Positions 47,249 to 55,350 of a stretch of 57,741 bases of DNA are shown here, in pieces. This stretch comes from a virus, in IMG/VR virus record IMGVR_UViG_3300042516_002128, positions 1-57,741 of that record; one strand, written 5' to 3'. The notes under the pieces were generated by a model. The model was not told the DNA's origin. It made no database searches and saw only the letters and a list, made by a program, of their open reading frames with translations. The position numbers and the translations under genes were made by a program. Within the stretch, counting starts at the first letter, position 1, and every line of letters begins with the position of its first letter.

Positions 47249-48436
47249 ATGGGATTACCTAAAAGAAAAAATAATATACAAGTTTACGGTAAAATCGAAA
47301 ATGAGGAGGGTTCTATCATTGGTAGAAGAAAAGAGTTATTGGAAAGAATAACAAAATCTGACACCTATTTACCCGATTCTGTTTTGCACGATGACCTTGA
47401 TTTGGGTATGCTTGATTTTGTTAAAGAAAACTTCAAAGTTGTATCTGACGGTAATCAAATCCCTATTATCCCTAAAATATTAACAATACAAAGATGGGGT
47501 GAATTTACAAATAATTGGACATTTTCGGATGATGATGGTAATATTAAATTACCATTTGTTGCCATAGTTAGAAAACCCGATGTTCAATTTGGAACAAATC
47601 CCGCAGTACAAAGAACAATTCCTGATAGAAGAGAATTTTTTTACGCTAGTGTTCCAACATGGGACGGTAATCAACTCGGTGCTGACATTTACAAAATACC
47701 ACAACCAATTGCAGTAGACATCACTTTTGATGTAACAATTGTTTGTACAAAATTTAGAGACATAAACAAATTTAATAAGGTTGTTTTACAAAAATTCTCA
47801 TCTCGCCAATCATATACGTCCGTAAAAGGTCATTACATACCCATAGTATTGGATAGAATCGAAGATAATACTCCAATGGATACTTTGGATGGTAGAAGGT
47901 TTTACATCCAAAATTACACCTTTACAATGTTAGGATTCCTAATTGATGAAGAGGAGTTTGAAGTTAAACCGGCAATCAATAGAATTTTAACTATGGTGGA
48001 GACTGATTTAAGGTCAAGTAGTACCCCAAGACCCGAAATTAATTTATCAATAACAAGTTCATATTCGAGGGGTTCAATTGTTTCACAATATTCTGTAGTA
48101 GCATCACGTAAAGTTGATAAAACAGTTGAGATTACATTTGACGATATATTAGGTCTCACAACCGGTGGTACAGTAACAATACCGGTTAAATTATTTATAG
48201 AACCTAAACAAATTTCAGGAACTACTGAATATACGGTTGATGGTGTTTATTCAAATTTAAATCTAACAAATACTTTTAGTGGATTAACGGTCAACACAAT
48301 AGGTAGAAGTAATTTTGATTTTAACACGACTAACACATCTATATTTCAACATATTCCAACCCCAACACCAACTATTACCCCAACACTAACTATTACCCCA
48401 ACTCCAACTATTACCCCAACTCCAAGTAGTCCTTAA
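47249..48436 (+). CDS. Tail completion or sheath-stabiliser candidate (T4 gp15-like) with Pro/Thr tail
   Basis: 395 residues. The body (PIIPKILTIQRWGEFTNNWT, LPFVAIVRKPDVQFGTNPAV, PQPIAVDITFDVTIVCTKFR, HYIPIVLDRIEDNTPMDTLD) resembles gp15-type tail terminators, which cap the tube and sheath. Two bases separate it from the gp14-like gene. The last 26 residues are a Pro/Thr run (TPTPTITPTLTITPTPTITP) like those in the fibre genes, which is odd for a terminator and may have been acquired by repeat recombination. The call is moderate. Confidence 0.5.
   Translation: MGLPKRKNNIQVYGKIENEEGSIIGRRKELLERITKSDTYLPDSVLHDDLDLGMLDFVKENFKVVSDGNQIPIIPKILTIQRWGEFTNNWTFSDDDGNIKLPFVAIVRKPDVQFGTNPAVQRTIPDRREFFYASVPTWDGNQLGADIYKIPQPIAVDITFDVTIVCTKFRDINKFNKVVLQKFSSRQSYTSVKGHYIPIVLDRIEDNTPMDTLDGRRFYIQNYTFTMLGFLIDEEEFEVKPAINRILTMVETDLRSSSTPRPEINLSITSSYSRGSIVSQYSVVASRKVDKTVEITFDDILGLTTGGTVTIPVKLFIEPKQISGTTEYTVDGVYSNLNLTNTFSGLTVNTIGRSNFDFNTTNTSIFQHIPTPTPTITPTLTITPTPTITPTPSSP
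48355..48433 (+). repeat. Pro/Thr-coding repeat tract at the gp15-like C-terminus
   Basis: CCAACACCAACTATTACCCC units encode TPTPTITPT. The DNA is similar to the stalk tracts at 37899 and 38656. Confidence 0.75.
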
Positions 48437-48752: not shown

Positions 48753-51596
48753 ATGGCAAATTCAAATAGAGTATTTGTGTCTCCAGGTGTGTACACATCG
48801 GAAAAAGATTTATCATTCGTAGCACAAAGTGTTGGGGTGAGTACATTGGGGTTAGTGGGTGAAACTTTAAGAGGTCCCGCTTTCGAACCAATTTTAATAA
48901 CAGATTTCGATGCGTTCAAATTATATTTTGGAGGTACATCACCTGAAAAAGATGGTAATAACAATCCAAAATATGAACTACCTTATGTTGCAAAAGCATA
49001 CCTTCAAGAATCTAATCAATTATTCGTAACAAGAATTCTTGGTTTAACAGGATATAAACCAGTTAAAACATTCGCGATTCAAACAATCGGTGGTGTTGAG
49101 GTTGGTTCATTAAGTGGAACCACATCAGGAACAACAATTCCATCAACAACAGGTATTACAGGTAGTACTTTCTACACTTTCTTATCAGATAAGAAAGCTT
49201 ATGATGGTAACACAATTACTGACTACATTGTTACAAACTTTAGTGGTAACACTTCAAGTAATAATAACGATTGGTTTGTTTTGGGTAATGTACCGTTTTC
49301 AGGAACATCAGGTTTAACTGGTACTGAGGTTATCTCACCATTGACAGGTTTGGACAATGCAAATAATTACAACTCAAAAGAGTGGTACAATACATTAGTT
49401 AATACGGCGGGTGATGAAGTTTACTCATACCTATTCGTTTATAATAGTGGAACAAGTAGATTCAATGTTACAGAATACACATATAATGCAACTACATATA
49501 GTGATTATGATGGTCAAGTTGTTGTTGCTTTCAGGTCAAGAGGTTCATACGCTGGTCAAACTTTAAATTTGGAAGTTACTGCGAACTCTAACTTTAATAT
49601 TTCTGGTTCAGATTTAGTGGTTAATCCATTAGCTGAATTTACACTTAATGTAACAGGTTCAACAAGTGGAGCTAAAACATTTACTTGTAGTTTAGATACG
49701 TCATCATCAAAATATGTTACAAAAGTTTTAGGTAATAGTGTGTATGATAAATCAAAAACTGATATTCCGATTTATGTTTATGAATCTTACCCAAATTATT
49801 TATTAAAAGCGTTTCAACAAGGTTATATTAGAGGTATCAGTTTAACTGAGGTATATAATACAGAAAACAATAACTTCTTAACAGAATGGGATACTCCAAT
49901 GTCACCGACTGTTGTTTCTGAAGTTAGAGGTGGTAACGTTGCAGATTTATTTGAAGTAATTACAATTTCTGACGGTGAGGGTGCTAACACACAACTTAAA
50001 ATTATGGTCATGAACATTGATATTGATACATATGAATTTGACCTTTTAGTTCGTGAATACTACGATACTGATGACAATATGGTTGTTCTTGAGAAATTTA
50101 CAAGATGTTCAATGAATCCGGATGTTCCGGGTTATATCGCTAAGAAAGTTGGTACATCAGATGGTGAATATGAATTGAATTCAAAATACATCATGTTGAA
50201 TATGGCTAGTAATCACCCAACAGATGCTTACCCTTCAGGATTCAAAGGTTTTGTGAATAACTCAAACTTTGGTGGTAGTACTGTAGGTTCTGTTATGTAC
50301 AAAACGGAGTACTATATTGCTGGTGATGTAACGGGATACAATTCTGATGGTTCACCAATTACAACTTCAGGTGACACAATTAGAAAAGTATGTTTAGGTT
50401 TCTCAACTCAATCAGGTTATGATGATGATTTGTTAAAATACAAAGGTAAGGCGGCAACAGATACAACTAAAGGTTTCCACTTATCAACAAACGCATCAAC
50501 AATTACAGGTACAACATATCTAACAACACCATACGATTTAGAAGGACAAACAGGAGCAGATAATTTCTTAACAAATATCAACAACCGTAAATTTACATTA
50601 GCATTATGTGGTGGATTTGATGGTTGGGATATCTATAGAAATGTAAGAACCTATGGAGATAGTTATATCTTCGGTAAGAAAACTTATGTTTCAGGTAACA
50701 CAGCTAATGGTGGTGTGTTCAGTACAGTAGCAACAAGTCCAAACTCTGACTACTATTCATACATTAAAGGTATTGATACTTTTGGTAACCCTGAAGCTGT
50801 TGATATCAACATATTCGCAACACCGGGTATTAATTTCTATGACCATAGTTCATTAACTTCTTACGCAATTGATATGGTTGAACAAGATAGAGCGGATTCA
50901 CTTTATGTAATTGGTTCACCAAACTACAGTACAGTTGATGAGGTGGTTGGAGCTTTAGATGGTGTGGCAATGGATACAAACTATTCGGCTACTTACTTCC
51001 CTTGGATTCAAATTAGAGATGTGGATAACGCAACTCAACTTTACATTCCACCAACAGGTGAGGTAGTAAGAAATATAGCGTTAACAGATAACGTATCATT
51101 CCCATGGTTCGCAGTCGCTGGTTATTCAAGAGGTTTGGTTAATTCAATTAAAGCAGTTAAGAAATTAACACTTGATGAAAGAGATGAACTTTATAAAAAC
51201 AGAATTAACCCAATTGCAACATTCTCTGATACTGGTACAATTATTTGGGGTAACAAAACACTTCAAGTAAGAGAATCAGCACTTGATAGAATTAACGTAA
51301 GAAGATTGTTATTAAGAGCAAGAAAATTAATTTCAGCAGTTGCAGTTAGATTGATATTTGAACAAAATGACGAACAAGTTCGTAATGAGTTCTTGAGATT
51401 AGTAAATCCAATATTAGACGCAATTAAGAGAGAAAGAGGATTATTTGATTTCCGTGTAACGGTTTCTAGTGACCCAGCTGATATAGATGCAAATACATTG
51501 AGAGGTAAAATCTTTATTAAACCTACTCGTTCACTTGAATTTATTGATGTTGAATTCATTATTACACCAACAGGGGCTTCGTTTGATAATATTTAA
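48753..51596 (+). CDS. 18: Tail sheath protein (T4 gp18-like)
   Basis: 947 residues, longer than T4 gp18 (659). The N-terminus VFVSPGVYTSEKDLSFVAQS and the C-terminal core (LQVRESALDRINVRRLLLRA, RLVNPILDAIKRERGLFDFR, TLRGKIFIKPTRSLEFIDVE) are typical of contractile sheath proteins. The extra length is in beta-rich, Ser/Thr/Gly-rich inserted domains (about 130-480), probably exposed on the tail surface. The sheath contracts to drive the tube through the cell envelope. The A-rich leader and C-ending codons fit high expression. Confidence 0.95.
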   Translation: MANSNRVFVSPGVYTSEKDLSFVAQSVGVSTLGLVGETLRGPAFEPILITDFDAFKLYFGGTSPEKDGNNNPKYELPYVAKAYLQESNQLFVTRILGLTGYKPVKTFAIQTIGGVEVGSLSGTTSGTTIPSTTGITGSTFYTFLSDKKAYDGNTITDYIVTNFSGNTSSNNNDWFVLGNVPFSGTSGLTGTEVISPLTGLDNANNYNSKEWYNTLVNTAGDEVYSYLFVYNSGTSRFNVTEYTYNATTYSDYDGQVVVAFRSRGSYAGQTLNLEVTANSNFNISGSDLVVNPLAEFTLNVTGSTSGAKTFTCSLDTSSSKYVTKVLGNSVYDKSKTDIPIYVYESYPNYLLKAFQQGYIRGISLTEVYNTENNNFLTEWDTPMSPTVVSEVRGGNVADLFEVITISDGEGANTQLKIMVMNIDIDTYEFDLLVREYYDTDDNMVVLEKFTRCSMNPDVPGYIAKKVGTSDGEYELNSKYIMLNMASNHPTDAYPSGFKGFVNNSNFGGSTVGSVMYKTEYYIAGDVTGYNSDGSPITTSGDTIRKVCLGFSTQSGYDDDLLKYKGKAATDTTKGFHLSTNASTITGTTYLTTPYDLEGQTGADNFLTNINNRKFTLALCGGFDGWDIYRNVRTYGDSYIFGKKTYVSGNTANGGVFSTVATSPNSDYYSYIKGIDTFGNPEAVDINIFATPGINFYDHSSLTSYAIDMVEQDRADSLYVIGSPNYSTVDEVVGALDGVAMDTNYSATYFPWIQIRDVDNATQLYIPPTGEVVRNIALTDNVSFPWFAVAGYSRGLVNSIKAVKKLTLDERDELYKNRINPIATFSDTGTIIWGNKTLQVRESALDRINVRRLLLRARKLISAVAVRLIFEQNDEQVRNEFLRLVNPILDAIKRERGLFDFRVTVSSDPADIDANTLRGKIFIKPTRSLEFIDVEFIITPTGASFDNI

Positions 51597-51916: not shown

Positions 51917-52405
51917 ATGGCAGATTTATTAATGAAAATGCCGGTTCCATACGAACCGAAAAGAGTTAACCGTTTCATACTTAGATTCCCTTCTTCATTG
52001 GGTATCAACGAATGGTATGTGGCATCAACGGCTAGACCAAGTGCAAAAATCAATTCAGTAGCAATACCATTCATCAATACATCAACTTATGTTGCTGGTA
52101 GATTCGAATGGAATGAACTAAGAGTAACATTTAAAGACCCAATTGGACCTTCAGCGTCACAAGCGTTGATGGAATGGTTCCGTTTACATGCGGAGTCTGT
52201 AACAGGTCGTATGGGTTACGCTGCTGGTTATAAGAAAGACATTGAATTGGAAATGTTAGACCCAACGGGTGTTGTTGTTGAGAAATGGATTCTTCAAGGT
52301 ACATTCTTAACTGACTTGAACTTCAACGAACTTGATTATTCAAGAGATGATATTGCAACTATCACAGCGTCTTTACGTATGGATAGATGTATTCAAGTTT
52401 ACTAA
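51917..52405 (+). CDS. 19: Tail tube protein (T4 gp19-like)
   Basis: 162 residues, matching the 163 of T4 gp19. Features include PYEPKRVNRFILRFPSSLGI, EWYVASTARPSAKINSVAIP, RFEWNELRVTFKDPIGPSAS, QALMEWFRLHAESVTGRMGY and YSRDDIATITASLRMDRC. It forms the hexameric rings of the inner tube. The A-rich leader and C-rich codons resemble the sheath gene. It stands between the repeat array and a perfect palindrome hairpin. Confidence 0.95.
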   Translation: MADLLMKMPVPYEPKRVNRFILRFPSSLGINEWYVASTARPSAKINSVAIPFINTSTYVAGRFEWNELRVTFKDPIGPSASQALMEWFRLHAESVTGRMGYAAGYKKDIELEMLDPTGVVVEKWILQGTFLTDLNFNELDYSRDDIATITASLRMDRCIQVY

Positions 52406-52540: not shown

Positions 52541-53290
52541 ATGGAAGAATATAGAATTGACCCCACGATTGCATATGATGTCGTGGAATTACCTTCAAGA
52601 GGTATTTTTTACCCAAATAATAAAAAATCACTAAAGGTTTCTTATTTGACGGCTGCGGATGAAAATATTTTAGCGGCACCAAATTTAATTCAAACAAATT
52701 CAATTGTTACTGAACTATTAAAAAGAAAAATTTTGGACAGAGATTTTCCAATCGAAGATATGACTGAAGAAGATAAACAAACTGTTTTGATTTTTCTTAG
52801 AAATACCGCATTTGGTTCAGAATATAGTGTTACCTTAACCGACCCAAAAACTGATTTAGAATTTAAAGCTAATATTGATTTAAGTAGTTTAAATTTTAAA
52901 CCTTTTGATTTGGTTCCGGATAGTAATGGTGAATATCCATATTTTATGGAAAAATCTAAAATTGGTATTACTTTTAAATTTTTAACACCAAAACAAGAAA
53001 ATGAAATATCAGAAATTCAAAAAAGTTGGAATGGTAGTGGATATGCTCCAGTTATCACAAAACAATTAGAAATGATGATTAAATCTGTTGAGGGTAATAA
53101 AGACCAAATGAACATTAGAAACTTCATTGAAAAATTACCAATTAAAGATTCCCAAGACTTTAAAAAATATGTTTCAGAACATAGACCAGGTGTAGACCTT
53201 AAACAAACAACAAAAACCCCATCAGGAGAAGATATCCAATTTTATATTGGGTTTGGGGTTGAGTTTTTTCGCCCTTTCTACGGACTATAA
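52541..53290 (+). CDS. Tail assembly chaperone / T4-type baseplate protein (frame 0 product)
   Basis: 249 residues. It begins YRIDPTIAYDVVELPSRGIF, YPNNKKSLKVSYLTAADENI, LAAPNLIQTNSIVTELLKRK, the signature of the T4 baseplate hub-assembly family (gp26-related). It occupies the tail assembly chaperone slot, between tube and tape measure. The frame-0 end (GVEFFRPFYGL) is short and unlike the family, whereas the +1 frame immediately continues with a good family ending (see next entry). The rare codon CGC follows TTT TTT at the shift point. A long form of 292 residues is therefore expected besides this 249-residue form. Confidence 0.75.
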   Translation: MEEYRIDPTIAYDVVELPSRGIFYPNNKKSLKVSYLTAADENILAAPNLIQTNSIVTELLKRKILDRDFPIEDMTEEDKQTVLIFLRNTAFGSEYSVTLTDPKTDLEFKANIDLSSLNFKPFDLVPDSNGEYPYFMEKSKIGITFKFLTPKQENEISEIQKSWNGSGYAPVITKQLEMMIKSVEGNKDQMNIRNFIEKLPIKDSQDFKKYVSEHRPGVDLKQTTKTPSGEDIQFYIGFGVEFFRPFYGL

Positions 53291-53420
53291 GAAAAACCAA
53301 CTTTCAGAAATTTTATTCCTCGTTAAACGAGGATTCTCTTATGGGGACATAAATTCTATGCCAATTTATATAAGAAGATACTATATTGATTATATTTTGG
53401 AAATAGAAAACCAACAGTAA
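53271..53420 (+). CDS. C-terminal extension of tail chaperone, reached by +1 frameshift
   Basis: In the +1 frame, 49 codons follow TTT TTT (53264-53269) and end at TAA 53418-53420: ALSTDYKKNQLSEILFLVKR, GFSYGDINSMPIYIRRYYID, YILEIENQQ. The peptide is well ordered and resembles the short second part of phage tail chaperones (L-S-E-I-x-x-L, M-P-I-Y-x-R-R). The +1 frame opens upstream at 53196 without an ATG, so a separate start is unlikely. Slipping the P-site tRNA from TTT to TTC while CGC waits in the A site would make the fusion. An extra T from a homopolymer read error is the alternative. Confidence 0.65.
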   Translation, partial: ALSTDYKKNQLSEILFLVKRGFSYGDINSMPIYIRRYYIDYILEIENQQ

Positions 53421-53433: not shown

Positions 53434-55350
53434 ATGGCAAAAGATTTATCAAAATTAGCGAAAACCGCAAGTATTTCTGAATTTGAACAAGAATGGTGCG
53501 CACAACAAACCCCTCCTATAACATACGGGGCCATGACTTCTACTGACCATACGAATGCGGGTGCCGCTTACAATTACTATAAAACATTTAAAGATAATGG
53601 TAGTAATAATAAAGAAGGTAGTTTTATGGGTAAGTTGGTCGGAGTTGCTGCAGATTTAGCTAAAACACAAGAAGTGGATAACTCATATTCTGGTATACAG
53701 GATTCTTATATTAAAGCTAATGAAGCGATTAGTTCCTTAATTAATTCGGAAGGTAAACTTAACGATGTAAAGGTAATTGGTTCCAATTTAATAAAAGGTA
53801 CATACGAAAGATTTTTAGGATATTTAACAGAACAAACCGAACTACTACATCAAGTCAATGAGGGAACTAGTTTAACGGGAAAACTATCTGAGGGTGTTAG
53901 AGAAGAATTAACTAATAGTAGTGTTCCTCTAATGAAATATAAGATAGGGTTTCAAGAAATTGTTACAGCATCTTTAGATTTAACAAAAACAACAAGTAAA
54001 TTTAATTTAATTAATAGTGAAACATGGGACAAAGTTGGACAATCAGCTAAAGCATATGTTGGGACATTATCAGATTTAACAGCAATGTTACCTGCTTTTG
54101 AAAAAATTGGTTATGGTGCTAGTGATACTGCAAAACAAATTCAAATTTCAGGTCAAAGAATGATGAAACTTGGTTTAGATTCTAAATCAATGTTAAAAGA
54201 AGTTGGTGGAAGTTTAGATAAAATTAATCAATACGGATTTAAAGATGGTGTCCAAGGTTTGGCTAATATGGTGACCAAAGCAAAGGAATTTAGAATGTCA
54301 ATGGAAGAGACTTTCACAATTGCAAATAAAGTTATGGACCCAGAGGGTGCAATTGATATGGCGGCTAATTTACAGGCAATAGGTGGTGCGATTGGTGATT
54401 TGGGAGACCCATTAAAAATGATGTATATGGCCACAAATAATGTAGAGGGTATACAAGACGCATTGATTGGTGCTGCTCAATCTTTAGCGACATTTAATAA
54501 AGAAGGGGGTAAATTTGAAATAACCGGTATTAATATTAGGAAAGCCAAAGCAATGGCTGACCAAATGGGTATTTCATATAAGGAACTAACTCAAGGAGCG
54601 GTAGCTGCGGCTGAAAGGTCATCAGCGGCTATGTCAATGTTATCGAATGGATTAAAATTGGATAAAGACCAAACAGACTTAATTACTAACCTCGCCCATA
54701 TGAAAGATGGTAAAATGGTAATGGAAGTTCAAGGAGATAAAATGAGGGAAATACTTGGTCTTAAAAAGGATGTTAAAGAAGTTGCATTAGAGGAATTAAC
54801 ACAATCACAAGCGGAGTCTTTAGCTGAATATCAAAAAAGAGAATCTGAAAAAACACCTGAAGATATTATTAGGGGACAAGCAACCAACATTGAATTAGTA
54901 ACAAGGGATGTAAATTATATTTTAAGACTATTAACTGTTGAGTCCGGAAAAGCCGGAAAAAACACAATGAAAGCGTTGGGTGTTGATTTTGATGTTATTT
55001 CAGGTGAATCAAAAAAAATGAGAGAGTCAGCAAAAGGATATGTCCAAGCGGCATCCGATGACGTTAACTCAAAGTTAAACACAGTAATTACAGATAAAAA
55101 GGCAAAAGTAGATGGTGTCACATCAAAAGGTGCCGATGTTAATACCCCCCCTGATAAAAATAATGAAAACCTTACATCAAATAATAATCAGAATAAAGAT
55201 AGTACACTTAGTATTAACTTCAAGTCAGATGTTAACATGAATAAATTAGCGGGTGGATTATTAGAAATGCCAGGATGGAGTCAAAGTATAATGGATGCGT
55301 TGAACCCAAATGAATATAATGGACCGTTTACCACAATTAAAAGAGTATAA
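53434..55350 (+). CDS. Tape measure protein candidate
   Basis: 638 residues, close to T4 gp29 (590). It is mostly helical, with repeated hydrophobic helices typical of tape measures (LVGVAADLAKTQEVDNSYSG, AYVGTLSDLTAMLPAFEKIG, GLANMVTKAKEFRMSMEETF, MDPEGAIDMAANLQAIGGAI, GVAAAERSSAAMSM-like). It directly follows the tail chaperone gene, the normal place for a tape measure. It sets tail length and occupies the tube lumen. The C-terminal 100 residues are linker-rich (SKGADVNTPPDKNNENLTSN) and may bind the baseplate hub. A signal peptide is absent. Confidence 0.75.
   Translation: MAKDLSKLAKTASISEFEQEWCAQQTPPITYGAMTSTDHTNAGAAYNYYKTFKDNGSNNKEGSFMGKLVGVAADLAKTQEVDNSYSGIQDSYIKANEAISSLINSEGKLNDVKVIGSNLIKGTYERFLGYLTEQTELLHQVNEGTSLTGKLSEGVREELTNSSVPLMKYKIGFQEIVTASLDLTKTTSKFNLINSETWDKVGQSAKAYVGTLSDLTAMLPAFEKIGYGASDTAKQIQISGQRMMKLGLDSKSMLKEVGGSLDKINQYGFKDGVQGLANMVTKAKEFRMSMEETFTIANKVMDPEGAIDMAANLQAIGGAIGDLGDPLKMMYMATNNVEGIQDALIGAAQSLATFNKEGGKFEITGINIRKAKAMADQMGISYKELTQGAVAAAERSSAAMSMLSNGLKLDKDQTDLITNLAHMKDGKMVMEVQGDKMREILGLKKDVKEVALEELTQSQAESLAEYQKRESEKTPEDIIRGQATNIELVTRDVNYILRLLTVESGKAGKNTMKALGVDFDVISGESKKMRESAKGYVQAASDDVNSKLNTVITDKKAKVDGVTSKGADVNTPPDKNNENLTSNNNQNKDSTLSINFKSDVNMNKLAGGLLEMPGWSQSIMDALNPNEYNGPFTTIKRV

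Follow-up and report, generated by a model that had tools for sequence, protein, structure and literature searches.

The chaperone gene and its two reading frames

The stretch of DNA analysed here, called the window, is a 57.7-kb viral sequence from IMG/VR (record IMGVR_UViG_3300042516_002128), in which a T4-type tail assembly chaperone gene is followed by a second coding region in the +1 frame. An earlier note, made from the letters of the window alone, had proposed a programmed +1 frameshift in this gene. Its layout of the locus was exact on the rechecked sequence, namely a frame-0 end at 53290, TTT TTT CGC at 53264-53272 and 49 codons in the +1 frame, and the fusion length of 292 residues was reproduced. 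The features of the locus are as follows.

52541-53290, + strand: short chaperone form (TAC-N), T4 gp26-like, 249 residues in frame 0, matched by PF12322 and phrog_150
53255-53263, + strand: upstream context GGG GTT GAG; of the 22 close relatives, all have GGG and 21 have GAG
53264-53272, + strand: shift site TTT TTT CGC (TTTTTTCGC), TTY TTT CGN in 22/22 distinct close relatives
53267-53269, + strand: P-site TTT, predicted from the sequence to re-pair on TTC at 53268-53270
53270-53272, + strand: A-site CGC
53271-53420, + strand: C-terminal domain in the +1 frame, 49 codons and a stop, which would make the 292-residue long form (TAC-NC)
53288-53290, + strand: TAA that ends frame 0, at a distance of seven codons from the P-site codon in 22/22 close relatives

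The 249-residue open reading frame (ORF) ends in ...FGVEFFRPFYGL*. Its product was matched by PF12322 (T4_baseplate; E 2.1e-8, 34.5 bits against a curated cut-off of 24.5) and by phrog_150 (baseplate hub; E 2.7e-10), where the E-values come from single-genome searches. PF12322 also matched both T4 gp26 and T4 gp51. As judged by these profile matches, the gene belongs to the T4 gp26/gp51 family.

The +1 frame from 53271 translates as ALSTDYKKNQLSEILFLVKRGFSYGDINSMPIYIRRYYIDYILEIENQQ. It runs for 49 codons to 53417 and stops at 53418-53420, and the next ORF follows 13 bases on. The gene would thus encode a short product of 249 residues and a fused product of 292, whose junction peptide holds GVEFFALSTDYK. 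The C domain alone had no match in Pfam or PHROG, and a direct profile match to T4 gp51 failed (E 0.34 for the C domain and 0.083 for the fusion); the link to T4 gp51 passes via phrog_634 and the homologous domain of cyanophages. The open +1 stretch past the frame-0 stop measures 130 nt, and other genes of the window are followed by open frames of 106, 133 and 196 nt. Because an open frame of this length is unremarkable in an AT-rich window, the case is carried by conservation among relatives, which far exceeds what chance would give.

Conservation of the split and constraint on the proposed shift site

Related loci were collected by scans of IMG/VR, each covering the best 80 of more than 570. 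The scan with the 249-residue protein revealed 70 relatives, of which 22 distinct ones retain the region, at 63-100% identity. In all 22 the short frame ends in FFRPFYG(L/I) and the same domain continues in the +1 frame. A wider scan was seeded by Microcystis phage Mel-JY01 and Flavobacterium phage immuto, and with those two included it gave 74 distinct loci. The +1 frame is open in 73 of these sister-branch loci, at the sites TTT TTT TGG, TTT TTT TAC and TTT CTT TGG, followed by CCT. Both sets together have the +1 frame open beyond the short stop in 95/96 distinct loci, with the same C-terminal domain encoded. Homologue alignment, which the earlier note had proposed as a check, therefore found the split conserved, and repair into one uninterrupted gene was seen in none of the 96. 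An open +1 extension was also found in Bacillus phage SP-15, Listeria phage LIS04 and Streptococcus phage GXN1 (TTC TTT CGT), and the phage genome records with a matching split are those of immuto, Mel-JY01, SP-15, LIS04, GXN1 and RM378. Scans of IMG/VR with the SP-15 and MIJ3 proteins gave almost nothing new.

The region beyond the frame-0 stop has a median ratio of nonsynonymous to synonymous substitution rates (dN/dS) of 0.176 in the window's group, and its variability is 0.50 at third codon positions versus 0.29 and 0.18 at the others. By these substitution measures the +1 domain evolves as a protein under purifying selection. The low dN/dS contradicts the idea of a broken gene. A sequencing error could be suspected as well, since homopolymers are typical error sites in some data and the earlier note had considered a run of five rather than six T. 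However, the split is common to 95/96 distinct loci from many samples, the isolate genomes of immuto and Mel-JY01 included. The T-run is interrupted in some relatives, as in the TTC TTT CGC of locus L040, which excludes a homopolymer artefact. An error or a broken gene is hardly credible at this locus.

Another possibility is that two ordinary genes are present, so that ribosomes make the C-terminal piece independently, either at a start codon belonging to it or after re-initiating past the short stop. Public annotations do give a separate downstream ORF in immuto, SP-15 and cyanophages, and in nearly all cyanophage loci, where the domain lies in the -1 frame, an ATG stands 5 bases past the gp26 stop. 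Within the +1 frame, as far as 8 codons beyond the site, however, 5/22 close and 28/74 wider loci have no ATG, GTG or TTG, and 15/22 close and 50/74 wider loci have no ATG. Separate initiation is disfavoured because the start codon is not conserved. Moreover, conservation of the +1 frame starts exactly at the Phe-Phe pair, and a separate gene leaves the constraint on the frame-0 shift codons unexplained. We therefore regard two ordinary genes as improbable.

This constraint is pronounced. The context in all 22 close relatives is GGG GTN GAR TTY TTT CGN CCT TTC. GGG occurs at the site in 22/22 versus 7% of the Gly codons in these genes, GAG in 21/22 versus 15% of the Glu codons, and CGN in 22/22 versus 6% of the Arg codons. 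In the 45 ORFs of the window, CGC makes up 4 of 17,070 codons (AGA 434) and is the rarest codon used, CGG being absent, which confirms the earlier observation that CGC is rare and Arg mostly AGA. TTT-CGN occurs in frame once in the window ORFs, at 53267-53272. CCT TTC is kept because the +1 frame overlaps it, but GGG and GAG precede the shift, so overlap is not the cause of their conservation. The comparison indicates that the shift-site codons are under selection, and GGG GTT GAG is a possible stimulator. The first codon of the Phe pair is TTT or TTC and the second is invariably TTT (or CTT). As TTC is allowed in the first codon but not in the second, the second TTT is taken to be the slipping codon.

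The same T-rich sites bear on two further explanations. Most of them carry six- or seven-T runs, on which RNA polymerase could slip to give shortened transcripts. L040, L149, L153 and immuto lack an unbroken run, and the +1 and -1 groups both have six- or seven-T runs, yet are set apart by codon phase and by the preceding base, whereas a polymerase cannot read codons. Because of the broken runs and the different phase, polymerase slippage is very unlikely. Slippage by -2, as in phage Mu, would reach the same frame with one residue more, and TTT TTT lets the P-site tRNA re-pair on TTT two bases back. The tRNA would, however, mispair at -2 and pair at +1 in L040 (TTC TTT CGC), L149 (TTC TTT TAC), and L153 and immuto (TTT CTT TGG). 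The slow A-site pattern of CGN, TGG or TAC likewise suits forward slippage, not -2. We give the -2 route little credence, about as little as two ordinary genes.

Proposed mechanism, domain fold and neighbouring genes

It is very probable, on this comparative sequence evidence, that a T4 gp26/gp51-type chaperone is made as a short and a long form by programmed +1 ribosomal frameshifting at UUU-UUU-CGC. The frameshift proposed in the earlier note thus survives all computational tests that were run and appears conserved in relatives. Most ribosomes would produce the 249-residue short form, while a minority would slip one base forward at UUU-UUU-CGC. In this step the P-site Phe-tRNA would move from UUU to the better-pairing UUC (UUC or UUU across loci). 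A slow A-site codon (CGN, UGG or UAC) would leave time for the slip, the slowness of CGC being deduced from its rarity. The slipped ribosomes would then complete the 292-residue long form carrying the conserved C-terminal domain. We infer that the shift occurs on the ribosome, in the +1 rather than the -2 direction and at the P-site step, and the product ratio has the same standing. By analogy with lambda G/GT, the role of the short form may be to coat the tape measure protein, and that of the long form to recruit tube subunits.

The structure of the fusion was modelled with AlphaFold2, using the window fusion and unmodified alignment rows as input. The predicted local distance difference test score is 85, with the N domain mostly >90 and the three helices of the C domain near 60. 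The two top-scoring neighbours of the N-domain model, both at Z 5.1 in VIA, are 3klu (YqbN; root-mean-square deviation (rmsd) 3.9 over 83) and 2ob9 (HK97 tail assembly chaperone; rmsd 4.4 over 96; Foldseek E 1.9), and the next-best structural neighbour has a Z of 3.5. These neighbours suggest a chaperone fold for the modelled N domain. The viral models sharing the fold are T4-like baseplate hub proteins. A PDB sequence search with the fusion profile found no match.

Several points weigh against the proposed frameshift. The loci are related, so their counts overstate independence. The structural match at Z 5.1 falls in the range of common (chance) arrangements. A GGGG tract, present in 22/22 close relatives versus 7/73 sister-group loci, stands 8 nt ahead of the P-site codon rather than 3 as in release factor 2 (RF2), and Shine-Dalgarno sites are rare in the window; because of this spacing and this rare use, the site has no established stimulator. 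Comparison of the close relatives showed no RNA hairpin conserved after the site. The hairpin CCTCGTTAAACGAGG downstream in the window (z -1.85) was considered as a stimulator and rejected, as it is not kept in relatives.

The chaperone gene is flanked by the following genes.

51917-52405, + strand: tail tube protein, upstream of the chaperone gene (synteny), matched by phrog_4542 (E 3.8e-23) and 36% identical to the immuto homologue
53434-55350, + strand: putative tape measure gene, ORF of 638 residues, 13 bases after the +1 stop and positioned as in immuto

Profile matches identified a tail sheath gene as well as the tail tube gene upstream. Downstream, the 638-residue ORF matched no family, nor did BLASTP match it to the tape measure of immuto, and it is a putative tape measure gene by position. 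Of the earlier claim that the +1 frame ends just before the tape measure, the closeness is borne out by the 13-base gap, while the identity of the neighbour is positional. The window also encodes a terminase, a portal, a major head protein and a DNA polymerase. Together with the tail sheath and tail tube, these genes lead us to read it as a myovirus fragment with T4-type tail genes. Each of nine relative contigs of 125-288 kb holds a single copy of PF12322 and of the C domain, and a T4-style second full-length PF12322 gene was not found in them; the window, at 57.7 kb, is a fragment.

The tail sheath gene (48753-51596, + strand) encodes 947 residues, and the sheath profile of about 450 positions is stretched across residues 6-945, suggesting a large insertion. 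The protein encoded at 47249-48436 (+ strand) ends in a threonine-proline repeat (TPTPTITPTLTITPTPTITPTPSSP). A Shine-Dalgarno-like motif precedes only 3 of the 45 larger ORFs of the window, which suggests a host not reliant on Shine-Dalgarno, such as one of the Bacteroidota. No tRNA genes were found in the window. The +1 domain of the sister branch (alignment A4, e.g., L137:2176-2430 and L151:3336-3596) weakly matches Pfam DUF6760 (10 of 22 A4 members at E up to 1, the best at 1.5e-4, below the curated cut-off), and this family of unknown function may correspond to the C-terminal domain of the chaperone.

Direction of the proposed shift and comparison with known systems

A -1-frame version of the split occurs in T4-like jumbo, rhizobial and cyanobacterial phages, with the heptamer T_TTT_TTY as its site in the cyanophage and jumbo group. 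The site is the textbook -1 heptamer T_TTT_TTC in all 55 distinct -1 loci sampled (54 cyanophage-type and one jumbo-type), 54 of which keep the -1 frame open for at least 100 nt. The C domain read in the +1 frame is homologous to the one in the -1 frame (hhalign E 1e-8, probability 95.7). The base preceding the Phe-Phe pair is T in 0/95 +1 loci versus 55/55 sampled -1 loci. A T-ending codon precedes the pair in none of the 68 +1 loci where such a synonym exists, with 40.8 expected from gene usage; the naive log10 P of -32.9 is inflated by relatedness.

The sole exception among the 96 loci is L141 (L141:3200-3480), a single metagenomic contig in which an indel error is possible. Its junction ACA AAT TTC forms the -1 heptamer A_AAT_TTC, and its C domain is encoded in the -1 frame. 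In the tree L141 falls inside the +1 branch and its sister is +1 (support 99/89). The +1 loci do not form one clade, and the starred branches force at least three changes. On balance we favour a single T4-type chaperone family in which the same Phe-Phe hinge is read +1 or -1 and the preceding base tells the two directions apart (T in -1 loci, any base but T in +1 loci). T4 would have swapped recoding for a gene pair, and the L141 lineage would have switched to -1 together with the base. Such +1/-1 pairs would be a natural experiment on slip direction.

In cyanophages the 'baseplate hub assembly catalyst' (gp51; L164:3199-3390 and L167-L246) is annotated as its own gene and opens in the -1 frame over the T_TTT_TTC of gp26. 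Separate initiation is possible there, given the ATG after the gp26 stop. If the frameshift is real, the tail gene of hundreds of environmental phage genomes is split wrongly or annotated incompletely.

The tail assembly chaperone genes of T4-type phages were reportedly named by Vladimirov et al. in 2022, and we take them to be genes 26 and 51. The N-terminal family, PF12322, is common to the T4 pair and the window protein. The additional C-terminal part of T4 gp51 matches phrog_634, to which the cyanophage -1 domain belongs. In T4 the two genes are separate and lie on opposite strands, whereas the window phage has one gene and a proposed +1 shift. T4-type phages have been named as the exception to tail-chaperone frameshifting in long-tailed phages (PMC5009743; PRFect paper, summarising Vladimirov et al. 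2022). Poly-T -1 signals are reported in T4-like chaperone genes, with credit to Vladimirov et al. 2022 (PMC12846349), and a two-gene solution is described for some T4-likes in the PRFect summary of the same work. The earlier statement that no case was known in T4-type phages was therefore too strong with respect to -1 signals, but it holds in that no +1 case was found in the searchable literature, although Vladimirov et al. 2022 may include one. Chaperone frameshifting is already known, and the +1 form in T4-type phages would be a new variant. Despite the exceptional status of T4, a large environmental T4-type branch would then frameshift its chaperone by an uncommon forward shift.

The -1 chaperones of cyanophages and jumbo T4-likes resemble that of the window in the split at the short-frame end, the Phe-Phe hinge and the homologous C domain, but differ in the T_TTT_TTY heptamer and the -1 frame of that domain. 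The Vandenendeviridae and Andersonviridae are described as having -1 chaperones split at the short-frame end as well (PMC12846349). Lambda G/GT, like the window gene, gives a short and an extended chaperone from one start beside the tape measure gene (PMC5009743), but by a -1 shift at a different site. The features typical of G/GT-type genes were found here as overlapping frames, the open and constrained +1 frame of the relatives, and TTY TTT CGN CCT in 22/22. Elsewhere, frameshifted chaperones include that of Mu, with a -2 shift, and that of HSTV-2, very likely +1 (PMC5009743).

For the site itself, the closest logic is that of influenza A PA-X, where UUU_CGU was experimentally shown to be a +1 site and a wider UUU_C class is predicted (PMC3498833). 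The window sequence contains a UUU_CGN site of this type. The P-site/A-site logic of UCC_UUU_CGU is identical, which suggests that it is reproduced in phages, but PA-X is read by a eukaryotic ribosome and has UCC in the E-site, where the window has UUU (preceded by GAG). The +1 site of bacterial RF2 carries CTT T. There, as proposed for the window, a P-site tRNA that reads NUU slips forward, and CTT T is also present in immuto and L153, whereas the spacing of the G-rich tract differs between RF2 (3 nt) and the window (8 nt).
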